Virus record (IMG/VR): IMGVR_UViG_3300025118_000014 | Span: 1 to 59,283 of that record | From: a virus | Direction: 5' to 3' (one strand) | DNA length: 59,283 bases | Shown: positions 1-5,094 of the stretch, in pieces | How the letters are laid out: every line of letters begins with the position of its first letter | How positions within the stretch are numbered: the first letter of the stretch is position 1 | Translations under genes and position numbers: made by a program | The notes under the pieces: model-generated | The model's database searches: none | What the model was told of the DNA's origin: nothing | The model's input: only the letters and a program-made list of their open reading frames with translations

Positions 1-127
1 TCCCATCCGCTCACACCTCTATAGTAATCGTTTGACGGGGGATCGCCAGTACTTTCGACGCGATCGCGATCATTTCTTTTCTATTCGATGGACGTGTCTG
101 CGATCCCCAAAAAAAATAAAGAAAACA

Positions 128-157
128 CTAACATTCAGACGATCCGGCACCGATAAT
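128..157 (+). promoter_or_regulatory. Putative rightward early promoter with GATCC core
   Basis: CTAACA (128-133) and GATAAT (152-157) are 18 bases apart, before the first rightward gene. The spacer contains AGACGATCCGGC, which is identical to the spacer core of a leftward early promoter at 9764-9792. Two more TTGACG/TGGACG hexamers followed by GATC (32-37 and 89-94) lie upstream but have poor -10 partners. The -35 match is weak, so the case rests on the shared core. Confidence 0.4.
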
Positions 158-205
158 ACTTGTGTAGCCGGGAACACTAACCAACTACCCGGCATTGGAG
201 CCAAT

Positions 206-676
206 ATGAGCAAGACACACAACACCGACAGCAAAACCGCGAAACTAGCCTATGATGTAATTTGGGAGATCGCACGGTTTCACGATCCGCGCCAAAACTG
301 GTCAGGCCAGGAGATGACAGCGCACGAGTCCGCTATCCGTAGAGAAGCACGAACACGCAATGGATGGACTTCTAAAGAGATTAATATTGTATCCAAGGTC
401 TGGATCATGGAGATCTTCGTTCAATACAGCGCCCGCACAAAACAGGATGTGTACAGTCTAGCGGTCTGGAGTCCGGCGTTTCAGCAACTCGCTTTCAGTT
501 GTTCACGGGTCGCACACGATATCGAGCGCGCGAAGGCGACCATTAAGCGCAATAAAGACAGCGATAACCCCTATGATCAACGACGCGTGAAGGAAGCTAA
601 GGAGTTGATCGCCCGTCACCGAAAGCTAGTGCGACGCGTAAAGGCTACAATCAAGGCGTGTTACATCGAACGATAG
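206..676 (+). CDS. Unknown rightward early protein, 156 aa
   Basis: First gene of the rightward operon. The reading frame is open from base 32, but the ATG at 206 is preceded by GGAGCC at ribosome-site distance, so I start there. The product is basic, with no signal peptide or membrane segment. The second half (from about residue 105) is rich in Lys, Arg and Glu and looks helical (runs such as RRVKEAKELIARHRKLVRRV). I do not recognise a family. It is followed by 84 untranslated bases holding a hairpin (702-730) and then the next gene. Position and small size fit a host-takeover gene, which is inference only. Confidence 0.7.
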   Translation: MSKTHNTDSKTAKLAYDVIWEIARFHDPRQNWSGQEMTAHESAIRREARTRNGWTSKEINIVSKVWIMEIFVQYSARTKQDVYSLAVWSPAFQQLAFSCSRVAHDIERAKATIKRNKDSDNPYDQRRVKEAKELIARHRKLVRRVKATIKACYIER

Positions 677-677
677 A

Positions 678-694
678 CCATAGCCGGATAGTTG
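678..694. repeat. 17-base repeat CCATAGCCGGATAGTTG, copy 1
   Basis: CCATAGCCGGATAGTTG lies just after the stop of the 206-676 gene. The same 17 bases recur at 1980-1996, and the first 15 recur at about 4607-4621 inside the homing endonuclease gene. The function is unknown; a protein-binding or recombination site is possible. Confidence 0.5.
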
Positions 695-701
695 CTCTTT
701 G

Positions 702-730
702 GTTGCCCTATAGCGCGTCTATAGGTCAAC
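702..730 (+). ncRNA. Leader hairpin A (covaries with hairpin B)
   Basis: Outer stem GTTG/CAAC, an opposed C/T mismatch, inner stem CCTATAG/CTATAGG and loop CGCGT. It lies 30 bases before the ATG at 761. Hairpin B at 1027-1053 keeps the same loop and the same C/T mismatch while both arms change together, which indicates selection on RNA pairing. It could be a processing site, a translation control element or an antitermination signal. Confidence 0.65.
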
Positions 731-760
731 AATGGACTAACTAACCAAACGAGGTAGAAC

Positions 761-1009
761 ATGAACAATCCAATTCAACCAACAACCGAACAGCGATCAA
801 CCCTCATGAAGTACGGGTTTACACCTAGTAACTTTGGTGACCATGTCGACTCAAACGGGCACCGTGCATATCGATCGGATCGTTGTGGTCGGGTGTTGTT
901 CATCCAGATCATACATTGTAACTATACCGGCCGTCCCACTCACAGCCAGACACAATACTTCGCTTCATGGGACGACATGATCGCAGTCTGTATCGTCGGT
1001 GTGAAATAG
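761..1009 (+). CDS. Unknown early protein, 82 aa
   Basis: Small soluble protein with GAGGTAGAAC directly before the ATG as ribosome site. It is behind leader hairpin A. No family is recognised. It has four Cys (at least RCG and HCN contexts) that do not form an obvious CxxC zinc site. The C-terminal part is hydrophobic (MIAVCIVGVK) but too short for a membrane anchor. It is read in the same direction and with similar base composition as its neighbours at 206 and 1081, so it very likely belongs to one early transcript. The role is unknown. Confidence 0.65.
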   Translation: MNNPIQPTTEQRSTLMKYGFTPSNFGDHVDSNGHRAYRSDRCGRVLFIQIIHCNYTGRPTHSQTQYFASWDDMIAVCIVGVK

Positions 1010-1026
1010 CCTGTATTGATTTTCGG

Positions 1027-1053
1027 CGGCCCTGTAGCGCGTCTACAGGTCCG
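1027..1053 (+). ncRNA. Leader hairpin B (covaries with hairpin A)
   Basis: Outer stem CGG/CCG, C/T mismatch, inner stem CCTGTAG/CTACAGG and loop CGCGT, 27 bases before the ATG at 1081. Relative to hairpin A the fourth inner pair changes from A-T to G-C and the outer stem changes on both sides, while loop and mismatch are unchanged. Confidence 0.65.
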
Positions 1054-1080
1054 TAGTGAACCAATAGAGGTAAAGACCAT

Positions 1081-1207
1081 GATCACTAAACTATCAATAC
1101 ACTACAGAACAGCGCACGTCACGATCGACGGCGTCAACTACCGGATCGAGTTCCCTTCTATGTCTGAAGCATACGCCTACGCGGACGCGAACGGGGGTCA
1201 ACGATGA
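1081..1207 (+). CDS. Small early protein, 41 aa
   Basis: Very short gene starting MITKLSIHYR behind the ribosome site AGAGGTAAAG and leader hairpin B. An upstream in-frame ATG at 1019 exists, but it lies inside the hairpin region and lacks a ribosome site, so I reject it. The pattern (alternating beta-like N-terminus, then a helix ending SEAYAYADANGG) resembles small DNA-mimic or modulator proteins of phages, but no family can be named. Its stop overlaps the next start as ATGA, which implies translational coupling. Confidence 0.6.
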
Positions 1208-1575
1208 GGATCTACATCACACCGAATCAGAAGATCACCGCACCTCTGTTAGAAGTGCTACCCGCCTATGAATTGGAGCGGGATAGCGAGCCTAGCGATC
1301 CCGAATCGTTGACGGGTGAGGGCTGGCGTTATGCGCAGTATGAACGAACCGGGTATCGGGTGCTTGTCAACGTCAATAGTTGGACGCGGCGCTATTCCAA
1401 AGGATGGAATTGCTATGTTTTCACGGTACAGGTTCGTGAGGTCGAGACCGTACCCAATGAGGCGTGCACGGGTGTGTGTGCCGACCTGGGAGCGCCCGCA
1501 CAAAACATGATCGTCCGTGAAGAATACCTGAAGTGTATCGATCACGCGCACGCGATCATGAACTGGAGGAATTAG
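1204..1575 (+). CDS. Unknown early protein, 123 aa
   Basis: Starts in an ATGA overlap with the 41-residue gene before it, so the two are probably made in step. The product is acidic and aromatic-rich (ERTGYRVLVNVNSWTRRYSKGWNCYVFTVQVREVE) and looks like a small beta-sheet domain. No catalytic motif is visible and no family is recognised. A strong hairpin follows the stop by about 30 bases. The opposite-strand open frame at 1258-1755 is a shadow without a ribosome site. Confidence 0.65.
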   Translation: MRIYITPNQKITAPLLEVLPAYELERDSEPSDPESLTGEGWRYAQYERTGYRVLVNVNSWTRRYSKGWNCYVFTVQVREVETVPNEACTGVCADLGAPAQNMIVREEYLKCIDHAHAIMNWRN

Positions 1576-1899
1576 CGAAAAGTACAGTTTCCAAGGTGAT
1601 AAGTGTCCTAGCTCGATCCGAGTACTAGGACAAGGGTGTACCCATGAAATAGCGTGACAGGGCCAATAAGGCGCCCACACGCGGTGTACGGGTTTAGTGT
1701 AAGGCAAGGGTATAACTGAAACACAGGGAGGAGAGTTGACACAAGAACTGGGCAAAAAGGGGGCCGTCGATCAGGATGGCCGCGATCGCGGATGTCAAAA
1801 GATCGTTAAGTGCTTGACGCGCGGGAATGGAGCGACTAGCGGCCCGACCCAAGGGGGCATTGCAATTCTCGTGCCAAGACTTTACATGAAGGGATCGTC
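1576..1899 (+). other. Mostly untranslated stretch
   Basis: Holds the hairpin at 1604-1632, one rightward copy of the late-type box (GGGTATAAC at 1708-1716, the only plus-strand copy seen) and a very strong purine ribosome site (GGGAGGAG at 1727-1734). The site precedes a TTG at 1736, from which 58 codons are open to 1912. Confidence 0.4.
1604..1632. other. Strong hairpin after the rightward operon
   Basis: TGTCCTAG/CTAGGACA (1604-1611 with 1625-1632) encloses CTCG-ATC-CGAG with a two-base bulge, giving about 12 pairs. There is no U-run, so it is not a classical terminator. It may be an RNA end stabiliser, a processing site or an operator (it contains a GATCC). Confidence 0.5.
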
Positions 1900-1912
1900 A
1901 TGTCAAATCTGA
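1736..1912 (+). CDS. Possible 58-aa protein (TTG start)
   Basis: Open frame beginning TTG ACA CAA directly after GGGAGGAG and 20 bases after a rightward GGGTATAAC box. It overlaps the next candidate (1900-2115) by 13 bases. The composition is Gly/Lys-rich and unremarkable, and no family is recognised. The close spacing between the ribosome site and TTG is slightly tight. It is reported because promoter-like box, ribosome site and frame line up, but it may be fortuitous. Confidence 0.25.
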   Translation: MTQELGKKGAVDQDGRDRGCQKIVKCLTRGNGATSGPTQGGIAILVPRLYMKGSSCQI

Positions 1913-2115
1913 GGGGAGATCCCACGATTTTACTTGACACGCTTAGAGCCCGCTCACGAGGCGCGTATTTTGAAGGGGTCCATAGCCGGATAGTTGGCCA
2001 GGACCGCTACAAAGGGCACCTGACGGGCTCCAAATGGGCGCACCGGCTGATAATGACGGTCCAACCGACGGAATGGGGCACCGTATCAGAAATGAGAGGG
2101 GGGGGTCAGAAATGA
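1900..2115 (+). CDS. Possible unknown protein, 71 aa
   Basis: Open frame MSNLRGDPTILLDTLRARSRG with a modest ribosome site (AAGGGA, five bases before ATG). It contains the second copy of the 17-base CCATAGCCGGATAGTTG repeat. It ends in a G-run that forms the left arm of a hairpin. The residue mix is not typical of a folded protein and no family is recognised. If real, it is the last gene of the rightward operon. Confidence 0.35.
   Translation: MSNLRGDPTILLDTLRARSRGAYFEGVHSRIVGQDRYKGHLTGSKWAHRLIMTVQPTEWGTVSEMRGGGQK
1980..1996. repeat. 17-base repeat CCATAGCCGGATAGTTG, copy 2
   Basis: Identical to copy 1 at 678-694, and shares 15 bases with a third copy at about 4607-4621. Confidence 0.5.
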
Positions 2116-2126
2116 GTCACCCCCAT
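2099..2126 (+). terminator. Possible rightward terminator hairpin
   Basis: A G-run (about 2099-2105) faces CCCCC (2120-2124) across a short loop, at the very end of the rightward genes and before the leftward ones begin. The U-tract is poor (ATTTC), so termination is uncertain. Confidence 0.3.
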
Positions 2127-2491
2127 TTCACGACTTTTGGGGTAAGCCTCTATAAATTGTGCATAAATCTCAAGTAAGATAAATCTCGATGGCTCACACA
2201 AAACAAACTTCAACACAAAATCTCACACAAAAAAGTTTGAGAAAGTTGTGGCGGAATGATCTCAAACGACTATTATATTAGTACCGGGCGACACACCGGA
2301 GGAACAAAGTGTAGGAAGGGTCATGGCTGGGGGAGATCCGTCTAAAGACCCTGTGCTCACGCCGCTGCGCTAGGGCTGGTTCTGGGTGAGAACAGACTAC
2401 CCCGACCACATGGGCCGACTGGGTGATTGACCAGGGTTCCCCTTCCCTTACTAATATAATACTCGTCCTGGAACGGAAGTCCAGTACTTTC
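2127..2491. other. Intergenic stretch between rightward and leftward operons
   Basis: The first part (2130-2290) is A/T-rich with repeated CACAAAA words. The second part holds a TGGACT/TATTAT promoter-like pair pointing leftward (about 2455-2482) but no start codon with a ribosome site behind it. The leftward open frame reaching 2278 has no credible start. This is the convergence point of the two transcription directions, and no tRNA is recognised. Confidence 0.4.
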
Positions 2492-2665
2492 TTAGGAAAG
2501 ATCCTCCAGGGTGATCTCCATGAAGAATGCCTCCGCTTCCTCAAGGGTGTCGAACCGCTCAGCACACGGCTCCACAGTCGCGATGGACTGCACGATGAAG
2601 AAGTCCCACATCGTCTTGATGAGGGTTTTGCGGTCTGATGAGATGCGAATAGTTGTCGGTGTCAT
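2492..2665 (-). CDS. Small early protein, 57 aa, paralogue of 9545-9739
   Basis: Begins MTPTTIRISSDRKTLIK with GGAGT before the ATG. The frame is open further upstream, but that part lies in the promoter and terminator region. It is clearly related to the 64-residue protein at 9545-9739: both start MTPT-IR-S-DRKT, share FIVQS and E-CVERF/CAERF, and end F-TL-EAEAFFM-IT--DLS. The duplication extends past the stop codon into the same flank (CTTTCCTAAGAAAGT then CTGGAC). Function is unknown. The C-terminal half resembles the helix-strand pattern of small phage modulators. It sits behind its own promoter and a terminator for the upstream gene. Confidence 0.7.
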   Translation of the reverse strand: MTPTTIRISSDRKTLIKTMWDFFIVQSIATVEPCAERFDTLEEAEAFFMEITLEDLS

Positions 2666-2698
2666 TGTCGATACTCCATGTTGTTTGGCTATGTACAC

Positions 2699-2727
2699 AA
2701 GGTAGGCGCTGACAGGATCCCCGTCAA
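2699..2727 (-). promoter_or_regulatory. Sigma-70 type early promoter
   Basis: TTGACG (2722-2727) and TACCTT (2699-2704) on the coding strand with a 17-base spacer containing GGATCC. It lies 34 bases before the 57-residue gene. Confidence 0.6.
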
Positions 2728-2735
2728 GAACTAAA

Positions 2736-2770
2736 TGAAAAAGGGGATCGCCCTCAGTAGACGATCCCCC
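2736..2770 (-). terminator. Leftward terminator after the small terminase gene
   Basis: Perfect stem GGGGATCG/CGATCCCC (2743-2750 with 2762-2769), followed on the coding strand by TTTTTCATTT. It ends the transcript of the 2853-3767 gene just before the next promoter. Confidence 0.75.
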
Positions 2771-2852
2771 AGTTCTGGAAGTGAATCTCAATTCGATTTT
2801 GCTTTTGAAACGAATTCCTGTAGAATTGACCCCACCGGACCCCCACCCCCTA

Positions 2853-3767
2853 TTAGCCTAGCTCGTCCATCAAACGCTTGCGCTCGGCTTCAACTTCGAT
2901 GTCGTGCTGCTTGGCCTGCTCACGCTGGTCCCACAGGGCCTGGATAATCGTGTTGATGTCCTTCGTGTCCTTACGCAGGGCCACAAGTAGATCCGATTCC
3001 TGTTCCCGCGCGAACCTGACGCGAACCGACTCAACCCCACGGGCCTTTCCACCCTCGTCAAAGGAGAAGCCATACAGTTCCTGGGACATCACCATGAAGT
3101 TCTGGAGATCCTTCGGACTGATCTTCATGCTGCCGTCTTTCAACCCTTCTACACCACGGCCGATGACTGCACGGGTGATCTTCTTCTGCTCTTCCAGCAG
3201 CCTCTTACGCTCGTCTACCGTGTTCGTAGCCGCAACCTCGGTCTCAACGTCGTTGATGGCCTGTGCTACCGCCTGCACGACAGGAGACTCGTCCTCTACC
3301 GGAGCGATCCTCGGACGTGACACAGCCTCCAGGGCCGGATTTAATTTCTGGAAGGATGCGATTGGATCAAACCGCATGGCCCGTGAGACCGCGCGCAGCT
3401 CAACATGAGTCATTTCTGATACACACCTACTACAATACGCTTTGAACGCTCTTCGGTCAGCTTGCGACTTTTCCCTGTTAATCCTAGTTTGCCAATCCTG
3501 AGCTTTAGCCAGTTTCCTAGCCCAGAAGTCGCTCTTGCTTACTGCCTCCGCACACTTACGGTATGATCGACTCTTCGACTTCATCATAGCATACAGCAAA
3601 AAAGCCTTGTATTCAAGCGGACTTTCGGTGTCTCGCTTCTCGAAATGCTGTGTGTCCGGAACGTACGACGCATCGTGGTTTTCGGATCTCGTGATCTCGT
3701 TTTTGTCCTTCCCCACATATTCATTGGGGATTCTCTGCTTAGTATCTGGAGTATTGTCGTCTTTCAT
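2853..3767 (-). CDS. terS: Small terminase subunit-like protein (candidate)
   Basis: 304 residues. The stretch PLEYKAFLLYAMMKSKSRSYRKCAEAVSKSDFWARKLAKAQDWQTRINR resembles the helix-turn-helix opening of phage small terminase and related DNA-binding packaging proteins, in which a short helix-turn-helix recognising pac/cos DNA is followed by DW--R. The middle and C-terminus are long charged helices (VDERKRLLEEQKKITRAVI; QREQAKQHDIEVEAERKRLMDEL) suited to oligomer formation. I start at the ATG with AGGA upstream rather than the TTG 21 bases earlier. A late-type box lies at 3827-3837, which suits a packaging gene. There is no large subunit beside it, so the assignment stays tentative; it could be another DNA-binding protein. 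Confidence 0.5.
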   Translation of the reverse strand: MKDDNTPDTKQRIPNEYVGKDKNEITRSENHDASYVPDTQHFEKRDTESPLEYKAFLLYAMMKSKSRSYRKCAEAVSKSDFWARKLAKAQDWQTRINREKSQADRRAFKAYCSRCVSEMTHVELRAVSRAMRFDPIASFQKLNPALEAVSRPRIAPVEDESPVVQAVAQAINDVETEVAATNTVDERKRLLEEQKKITRAVIGRGVEGLKDGSMKISPKDLQNFMVMSQELYGFSFDEGGKARGVESVRVRFAREQESDLLVALRKDTKDINTIIQALWDQREQAKQHDIEVEAERKRLMDELG

Positions 3768-3826
3768 AGCGGGCTTTCCTAAAATCAAAATCAGAAACTG
3801 CGAGTATCACTGTATCCTGTACCTAT

Positions 3827-3837
3827 AATATACCCCT
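3827..3837 (-). promoter_or_regulatory. Late-type box (variant AGGGGTATATT)
   Basis: Coding-strand AGGGGTATATT, 60 bases before the small-terminase-like start. It matches the distributed AGGGGTATAAC box except for the last bases, and no -35 hexamer is seen. Confidence 0.5.
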
Positions 3838-4518
3838 GAGAGTCCCTTAAACGCACCACCACGCAGTGTTTTAGAGTCCATTGAGTATCGAATCGCACTA
3901 GCCCCACGGACAGCACCACGGGGCCTATTAGGAGCTTTGCTTCTAGCGTGTCCCGCACGAGCGGCAGAACCTAAAGTAAATCCCTAACTTGGAATCGAAT
4001 TCCGAAACATCTTTCTCTTTTAGTCACTAGGTGCGATTAGTCAAGAAAATAAATGTTCCGTGCTCGCACTAAAAACGAAAAAAACAGTTTTCCTTGAGGC
4101 CAACTTCTCCTTGTTGCTATTGAGGCATCGAATGCAATAGGGGGAATTGAGCCGAAAGGGAAACCCCGTATAAGATTATATACCTTTAGGTATATACCTT
4201 ATACTCCTATGTTCTTCCGCTAGTGGTTCCCAGGTTGAACCTGGGGTATGCGCAAAGTAATATCGATGGAGCGTTTTGGGGGTCAAAAAATAAGTGGACG
4301 ATAATGCACTTTCTTCCGTTTATTTCTGTCTTTACGAATTACAATGAGGATGCAGTTTCTAACTGGACTTTCGCCTGAAATGGCCCCTTTTCGCCTATTT
4401 CACAATGAGGATGTGCTTTGAAACTGCCATATCGCGTTATTGGTGCGAGCCCTCGCAGTTGATGAAAGTCCAGGTTCTATCGTCACGCACTCTAACGATA
4501 CAAAGCCGAATATGAGCC
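3838..4518. other. 680-base non-coding stretch with palindromes
   Basis: No credible gene on either strand. It contains GGAATCGAATTCC (about 3991-4003), a long imperfect palindrome around 4168-4204 (outer GTATAAG/CTTATAC, inner TATATACC/GGTATATA with loop TTTA), CCCAGGTTGAACCTGGG (about 4229-4245), and a direct repeat ACAATGAGGATG at 4341 and 4402. It lies directly downstream of a homing endonuclease gene. An origin, a structured RNA or the debris of an insertion are all possible. I could not identify a group I intron core. Confidence 0.45.
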
Positions 4519-5094
4519 TCAAGATTTCAACGGCTCTGGGTCACCTTGATCAACATTCATGCACATTGGATCATCCCAGTGCGCCATGATAGCCTCCCTC
4601 TCTGAGCCATAGCCGGATAGTACTTCGAACAACAAGCTCTCGCCGTTATAGTGCTTTCTAACGTTTGGGTTCTTGTGCGTTCCTGCCTTCGCGGTAGCCT
4701 TGTGGTTAGTCACCCTGTACTGCAAACAGTCGGTCTTCCCTATGTAGTAGCGTTCTCCCATCCAGAACCTGTATAGAAGGACATCGTGGGATAGTTTCTT
4801 CCTGCTCTCTGCTCTCCTTTCCCTAGCCTTTTTGCGCAGTTCTTCCTTGTTCTTCTCGTAGTATTCCTGACCGTACAAAATGTCCTTCTCACGGTTTCGG
4901 TTCTTTGATTTGTGGTCGAGCCTAGCCCCTCTTTCCTCTTTGGTCTCGTTCTTTATTCTATCGCTGGCGTACTTGCGAGCGCATGCCTTGCATCCGTTCT
5001 TTGTGTAGTACTTGCCCCTCTTTTTGCAGAACGACCCCGAGAACTCCGACAGTACTTTTGTTTCGCCACACTTAACGCACTTCTTTTCTTCCAT
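4519..5094 (-). CDS. GIY-YIG homing endonuclease with N-terminal zinc finger
   Basis: 191 residues, start fixed by AGGAGA. The N-terminus has a zinc module (C6-x2-C9 and C35-x2-C38, pattern CVKCGETK...NGCKAC) common in phage homing and HNH-associated proteins. Residues 45-100 are a very basic linker, and residues 105-180 form a GIY-YIG-like nuclease: LLYRFWMGERYYIGKT with R127 and H131 following. Such enzymes cut a target site and drive copying of their own gene. It is a free-standing insertion between the helicase and the long non-coding stretch, with its own late-type box. It contains the third, 15-base copy of the CCATAGCCGGATAGT repeat. Confidence 0.8.
   Translation of the reverse strand: MEEKKCVKCGETKVLSEFSGSFCKKRGKYYTKNGCKACARKYASDRIKNETKEERGARLDHKSKNRNREKDILYGQEYYEKNKEELRKKARERRAESRKKLSHDVLLYRFWMGERYYIGKTDCLQYRVTNHKATAKAGTHKNPNVRKHYNGESLLFEVLSGYGSEREAIMAHWDDPMCMNVDQGDPEPLKS

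Follow-up and report, generated by a model that had tools for sequence, protein, structure and literature searches.

The short rightward operon at the left end of a 59,283-base virus entry, a tailed-phage contig, carries two copies (A and B) of one intercistronic leader hairpin whose arms differ in letters and keep their pairing. Comparison of the two copies establishes that the element exists, that it was duplicated as a leader unit, that it lies between genes and that its pairing is conserved, and we judge it highly probable that A and B form an RNA secondary structure under selection. The element is a real and probably functional structured leader, belonging to a known kind of phage mRNA element. 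Among its candidate roles, we infer that RNase III-type processing ranks first, translational gating second as a close rival, and protein binding third. The window below is the whole stretch of 59,283 nucleotides.

A duplicated intercistronic hairpin

The first-pass annotation had described two leader hairpins, and both lie where it placed them, each being the independent minimum-energy fold of its own segment (−12.1 kcal/mol for A and −16.2 kcal/mol for B, folded separately). The common loop CGCGT, the single C/T mismatch (C706/T726 in A, C1030/T1050 in B) and the change from A-T to G-C (710/722 in A, 1034/1046 in B) were exact as described. The outer stem indeed changes with pairing kept, but in B it reads GCGG/CCGU rather than CGG/CCG; it has four pairs, including a G-U at 1026/1054, and the span of hairpin B is 1026–1054, not 1027–1053. 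The distance to the start codon, put at about 28 bases for both copies, measured 30 nt in A (ATG at 761) and 24 nt in B (ATG at 1079). AACCAA and GAGGTA do occur downstream in both copies, as claimed, but not in register: AACCAA lies at 743–748 in A, 3′ of the long stem, and at 1059–1064 in B, within the long stem.

Folding of the whole gaps (676–763 and 1003–1081) extended both hairpins into a lower stem, and the hairpins of the first reading are only the top of a 53–55-nt imperfect hairpin (Table 1). The lower stem pairs 689–700 with 732–743 in A (UAGUUG/UAACUA and UCU/GGA) and 1014–1024 with 1056–1066 in B (UAUUG/CAAUA and UUU/GAA). Its 1×1 mismatches fall at equal places in A and B, and it contributes two more doubly compensated pairs, a change through G-U and a coordinated indel of one base pair. 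Two extra pairs, 686–687 with 745–746, are predicted in A only. Each element starts 4–12 nt past the upstream stop codon and ends 0–7 nt ahead of GAGGTA.

The folds persisted at 15 °C, as well as with flanks of 0 to 80 nt at either end. With 150 nt of context the fold of A was weaker, and when 990–1120 was folded as one piece the lower stem of B was rearranged. When the 42 gene leaders of the phage were ranked by folding strength relative to shuffles, B came first (z −3.7), the leader of the first ORF fifth (−2.6) and A seventh (−2.0). Part of the 5′ arm of B (1012–1020, TGTATTGAT) is also perfectly complementary to ATCAATACA (1093–1101) at the start of the 42-aa ORF, a pairing that is an alternative to the lower stem of B and has no match in A. 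A third stable hairpin (TGTCCTAG/CTAGGACA, z −3.5) lies at 1604–1633, downstream of the 123-aa ORF; it lacks a T run, and its sequence is unrelated to A and B.

Table 1 Features of the rightward operon and its two leader elements (positions in the window).
Feature	Position	Strand	Remarks
Predicted hairpin of first-ORF leader	146–202	+	over Shine-Dalgarno-like GGAG; sequence and shape differ from A and B
ORF, 156 aa	206–676	+	upstream cistron of A; no family match
Element A	689–743	+	21 pairs; loop 714–718 CGCGU; 1×1 mismatches 695/737, 699/733, 701/731, 706/726
boxA-like TGCTCTTTG	693–701	+	within 5′ arm of A; B has TGATTTTCG in the aligned stretch
Hairpin A of the first reading	702–730	+	top of element A; GUUG C CCUAUAG CGCGU CUAUAGG U CAAC
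GAGGTA, 82-aa ORF	751–756	+	Shine-Dalgarno-like; 7 nt 3′ of element A
ORF, 82 aa	761–1009	+	between A and B; no family match; stop codon 4 nt before element B
Element B	1014–1066	+	second copy; 20 pairs; loop 1038–1042 CGCGU
Hairpin B of the first reading, one G-U pair longer	1026–1054	+	GCGG C CCUGUAG CGCGU CUACAGG U CCGU
GAGGTA, 42-aa ORF	1067–1072	+	Shine-Dalgarno-like; abuts element B; predicted pairing with 1009–1012
ORF, 42 aa	1079–1207	+	downstream of B; dissimilar to 82-aa ORF
ORF, 123 aa	1204–1575	+	start codon overlaps stop of 42-aa ORF (ATGA)

Covariation between the copies, in RNA or in DNA

The alignment of A with B comprises 55 columns and 21 pairs, and all 20 pairs held by both copies are standard. 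From A to B, five pairs change on both sides: 697/735 (C-G to U-A), 700/732 and 703/729 (both U-A to C-G), 704/728 (U-A to G-C) and 710/722 (A-U to G-C). Two others change by way of G-U, and B lacks one G-C pair of A, both arms being affected together. Paired positions hold 12 of the 13 substitutions and unpaired positions one. A MAFFT alignment shifted the indel by one column, by which six double changes were counted.

Random placement of the same substitutions kept every pair in 0.06% of trials and gave five double changes at a frequency of 1.5e-5. Similarly, random mutants refolded from scratch retained 20 common pairs in 0.04% of trials and gave five double changes at 5e-5 (about 5 of 100,000 trials). 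The covariation signal was lost when the 3′ partners were slid. A 19-nt core pattern allowing up to three mismatches matched the window twice, at A and B, against 0.01 expected, and 40 random windows contained one same-loop hairpin pair equally alike.

The covariation had been called direct evidence for a functional RNA structure. Conserved secondary structure is upheld, and more strongly with the lower stem included, but "direct evidence" is too strong, because the evidence comes from two paralogues on a single contig, for which no orthologue was found, and because a DNA palindrome would give many of the same symmetric changes. As the covariation rests on a single pair of paralogues, it provides good, not conclusive, evidence for RNA.

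The element is indeed also an imperfect DNA palindrome, with a core of a 7-bp inverted repeat around 5 bp; its reverse strand folds nearly as well, and the covariance model matches that strand too. These properties are consistent with an operator or other protein-binding dyad, a cruciform or a replication signal in place of an RNA structure, an explanation that we nevertheless consider improbable. A sequence-reading dimer would not need outer arms whose letters change and yet stay complementary. Each copy has two G-U pairs (694/738 and 698/734 in A; 1022/1058 and 1026/1054 in B), one of them common to both, and these would be functional only in + strand RNA; the covariance model gives 21 standard pairs on the + strand and two broken pairs per copy on the − strand. 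Additionally, both copies have the same orientation and sit exactly between a stop codon and a ribosome-binding site, and no promoter-like + strand match overlaps either. The + strand RNA reading is favoured because of the G-U pairs, the altered arms with pairing kept, and the placement between stop codon and GAGGTA.

Setting, copy number and origin of the operon

Nearly all genes of the phage are oriented leftward; family matches place portal and major head genes near the right end and a primase-helicase at 28–30 kb. The exceptions include the rightward operon (206–1575), which has four small ORFs that presumably share one polycistronic transcript. Its 123-aa ORF has no leader of its own, since the start codon overlaps the preceding stop codon. 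Family searches with the operon ORFs gave no match, every search for relatives of the 156-, 82- and 123-aa proteins was negative, and the predicted structure of the 156-aa product was of low confidence. No similarity was found between the 82- and 42-aa proteins downstream of A and B. These proteins being unrelated, the leader rather than the gene is the repeated unit, and homology of the downstream genes is ruled out as the source of the likeness between A and B.

No third copy was present in the window or the fetched relatives, nor in viral, phage and bacterial collections. Further copies had been proposed as a check by covariance-model search; model R1, run over 185 kb including relatives, detected A and B, on the forward and the reverse strand, and nothing else. 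With N at the varying pair, the 19-nt core had no match in viral_contigs, and a 20-base version had none in genome_contigs. A looser core pattern gave eight scattered matches, of which the covariance model recovered none. One of them, L039, resembles an ordinary terminator: its 11-bp hairpin has the same loop and leads into a T run. Searches of the leaders against phages with blastn yielded nothing or chance-level matches only. Neither A nor B matched Rfam at the gathering score; with E up to 5 across 1–4600, two microRNA matches alone appeared, chance-level and far below the gathering score.

Two IMG/VR contigs (L003 and L005) are near-identical parts of the same genome, and two others are distant relatives (L004, portal 72% identical; L006, primase-helicase 45%). 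No DNA match to the operon was seen in any of the four. The hexamer CGATCG occurs four times in 1–2150 (at 61, 872, 1122 and 1783) and is absent from the other 57 kb and from the 3.3 kb added by L003; the density of GATC in 1–2150 is two to three times that elsewhere. Because of this skew, segment 1–2150, operon included, looks like recently acquired or foreign DNA or a chimeric join. Such an origin would leave the source phage uncertain and may explain the failure to reach a relative bearing the element. The covariation would be untouched by it, because both copies sit in the same stretch. The operon may also continue past the contig end, with more copies there.

Several other sequence features were observed. 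The 17-mer CCATAGCCGGATAGTTG is repeated exactly at 678–694 and 1980–1996 and, with two mismatches, at 4607–4623 (chance 0.07 over the whole window), the last copy inside an endonuclease gene; similar sequence in L003, near 98 and near 678, flanks a GIY-YIG-like ORF. The repeat may be a homing or insertion site, in which case the copies at 678 and 1980 would bracket a 1.3-kb cassette. The leader of the first ORF matches the same 17-mer in reverse at 14 of 17 positions (182–198, − strand); its RNA could therefore pair with the leader of A, being largely complementary to the 5′ arm of that element. A GGGGTATAAC-like motif, probably a phage promoter motif, immediately precedes the ribosome-binding sites of about 17 leftward genes, with − strand sites from 5132 to 59071 (e.g., 50801, 51495 and 54879) and a + strand site at 1708. 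At 2266–2466, a GC-rich stretch of ~200 nt, in which a closed fold is possible (z −1.2), is flanked by 18-bp inverted repeats of 94% complementarity. This stretch, for which no Rfam or phage match was found, is a candidate structured RNA or small mobile element.

Candidate roles and known systems

The whole mechanism that we favour, and put forward tentatively, is that A and B are processed as double-stranded RNA by host RNase III. The two would be copies of one cis-acting element in the mRNA of the operon, a long, slightly irregular hairpin of 20–21 pairs between a stop codon and the next ribosome-binding site. An enzyme that acts on double-stranded RNA, most probably host RNase III, would recognise the stem, cut the polycistronic message at the two boundaries and separate the cistrons. 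Each downstream gene would thereby retain a short leader in which the Shine-Dalgarno sequence is free. The length and irregularity of the stem fit RNase III substrates. As at T7-type sites, the stem makes about two helical turns, with arms of 24–25 nt and 1×1 mismatches, and both elements lie between a stop codon and the next start, two in the one operon. The T7 early message carries multiple RNase III sites at cistron boundaries (PMC4858673). No phage-encoded RNase III was found, so the host enzyme would serve, as in T7.

Some observations count against processing by RNase III. The upper part of the element is more conserved in letters than the rest (2 of 23 letters differ in 705–727, and 11 of 30 elsewhere). 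RNase III has no need of such a bias, which points rather to specific recognition. The lack of an orthologue and of a third copy, and the nearly equal fold of the reverse strand, also speak against it. Of the roles first proposed, RNase III processing and regulator binding remain candidates, and antitermination is weakened.

Translational gating is possible but somewhat less probable. The hairpin would cover or abut the ribosome-binding site, and the downstream cistron would be read only once the hairpin is opened or by-passed, either because the lower stem is melted by a ribosome that reaches the end of the upstream gene or because a shorter transcript lacks the 5′ arm. Supporting this idea, the element begins within reach of a terminating ribosome and ends close to GAGGTA. 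In B, AGGU pairs with GCCU at 1009–1012 (four pairs), and the fold of B is the strongest of the 42 leaders relative to shuffles. The leader of the first ORF hides its own GGAG as well, and T4 genes with a ribosome-binding site hidden in a hairpin are phage precedents (PMC2988022). In A, however, the Shine-Dalgarno pairing consists of three weak pairs over a large internal loop with a partner that switches with context, and it is therefore not conserved between the copies. Moreover, blocking the 5′ arm in a simple fold test did not clearly free the Shine-Dalgarno sequence.

An unlikely third candidate is recognition of the CGCGU loop, the upper stem and the C/U mismatch by a specific RNA-binding protein, encoded by phage or host, that acts as a repressor or an activator of both downstream cistrons. 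The identity of loop and mismatch in the copies, and the concentration of letter differences outside 705–727, agree with such recognition, but with two copies this conservation may be mere incomplete divergence. No known RNA-binding regulator was found in the operon and no CsrA in the record, and the loop lacks GGA. In a broader and still less likely version, the hairpins would define a regulon, a leader unit that spreads between unrelated genes. Its fixed CGCGU loop would be the recognised feature, through either a new phage RNA-binding protein or loop–loop pairing of the self-complementary CGCG.

Nut-like antitermination, in which a boxA would precede a hairpin whose loop has 5 nt, is very improbable. 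An exact TGCTCTTTGG, the sole exact match in the window, stands directly 5′ of hairpin A, in the order boxA then boxB hairpin of nut sites (PMC6614801). B carries TGATTTTCGG at this place, with matching changes in the opposite arm (697/735 and 700/732), so the stretch is conserved as a stem and not as a linear box; the boxA-like TGCTCTTTG beside A is thus absent at B, where pairing is kept. In addition, boxA-like matches with up to one mismatch number 9 in the window against 9.2 by chance. An intrinsic terminator was rejected, as neither hairpin appears in the terminator scan and both are followed by A-rich sequence without a T run.

If the RNA reading is true, the operon is a compact case in which one phage has copied a structured leader between genes that are unrelated to each other, its fold preserved by compensatory change. 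It would offer a clean test of whether a phage reuses one hairpin for processing or translation at cistron boundaries, as with the T7 RNase III sites, and would be relevant to the ESAS repeats of actinobacterial phages, which are still unexplained.

The RNase III sites of T7 early mRNA (such as R1.1) are likewise irregular hairpins, of ~60 nt, at cistron boundaries of a polycistronic phage message; here, there are only two copies, of unrelated sequence, the stem is more regular, with 1×1 mismatches only, and cleavage is predicted. The T4-type hairpins (soc, e, segB, mobE, I-TevI and seg43) resemble A and B in lying at or just before the ribosome-binding site (PMC2988022), whereas A and B are duplicates of one hairpin in front of two unrelated genes, in neither was a late promoter identified, and only B clearly hides the Shine-Dalgarno sequence. 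Lambda nut sites are alike in having a 5-nt hairpin loop and a boxA, to which the boxA-like sequence ahead of copy A corresponds, but copy B has no boxA, the stem is much longer, and no N-like protein was identified.

ESAS in Cluster K mycobacteriophages are imperfect inverted repeats with a 4–13 bp spacer just upstream of start codons (PMC3203893), and repeats of this type also occur in Cluster EF Microbacterium phages (PMC7302621). Like them, A and B are short-spacer imperfect inverted repeats (arms of ~25 nt, 5-nt loop) repeated before unrelated non-structural genes of one phage. They differ in number, two here against many there, and in arms whose letters differ with complementarity kept. 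ESAS are also linked to a 13-bp SAS (GGGATAGGAGCCC or similar) at the ribosome-binding site, whereas GAGGTA stands here in ordinary leader sequence without an SAS beside the start. Because this defining motif is missing, A and B are not members of the ESAS, which are nonetheless the closest unexplained parallel and are similarly placed.
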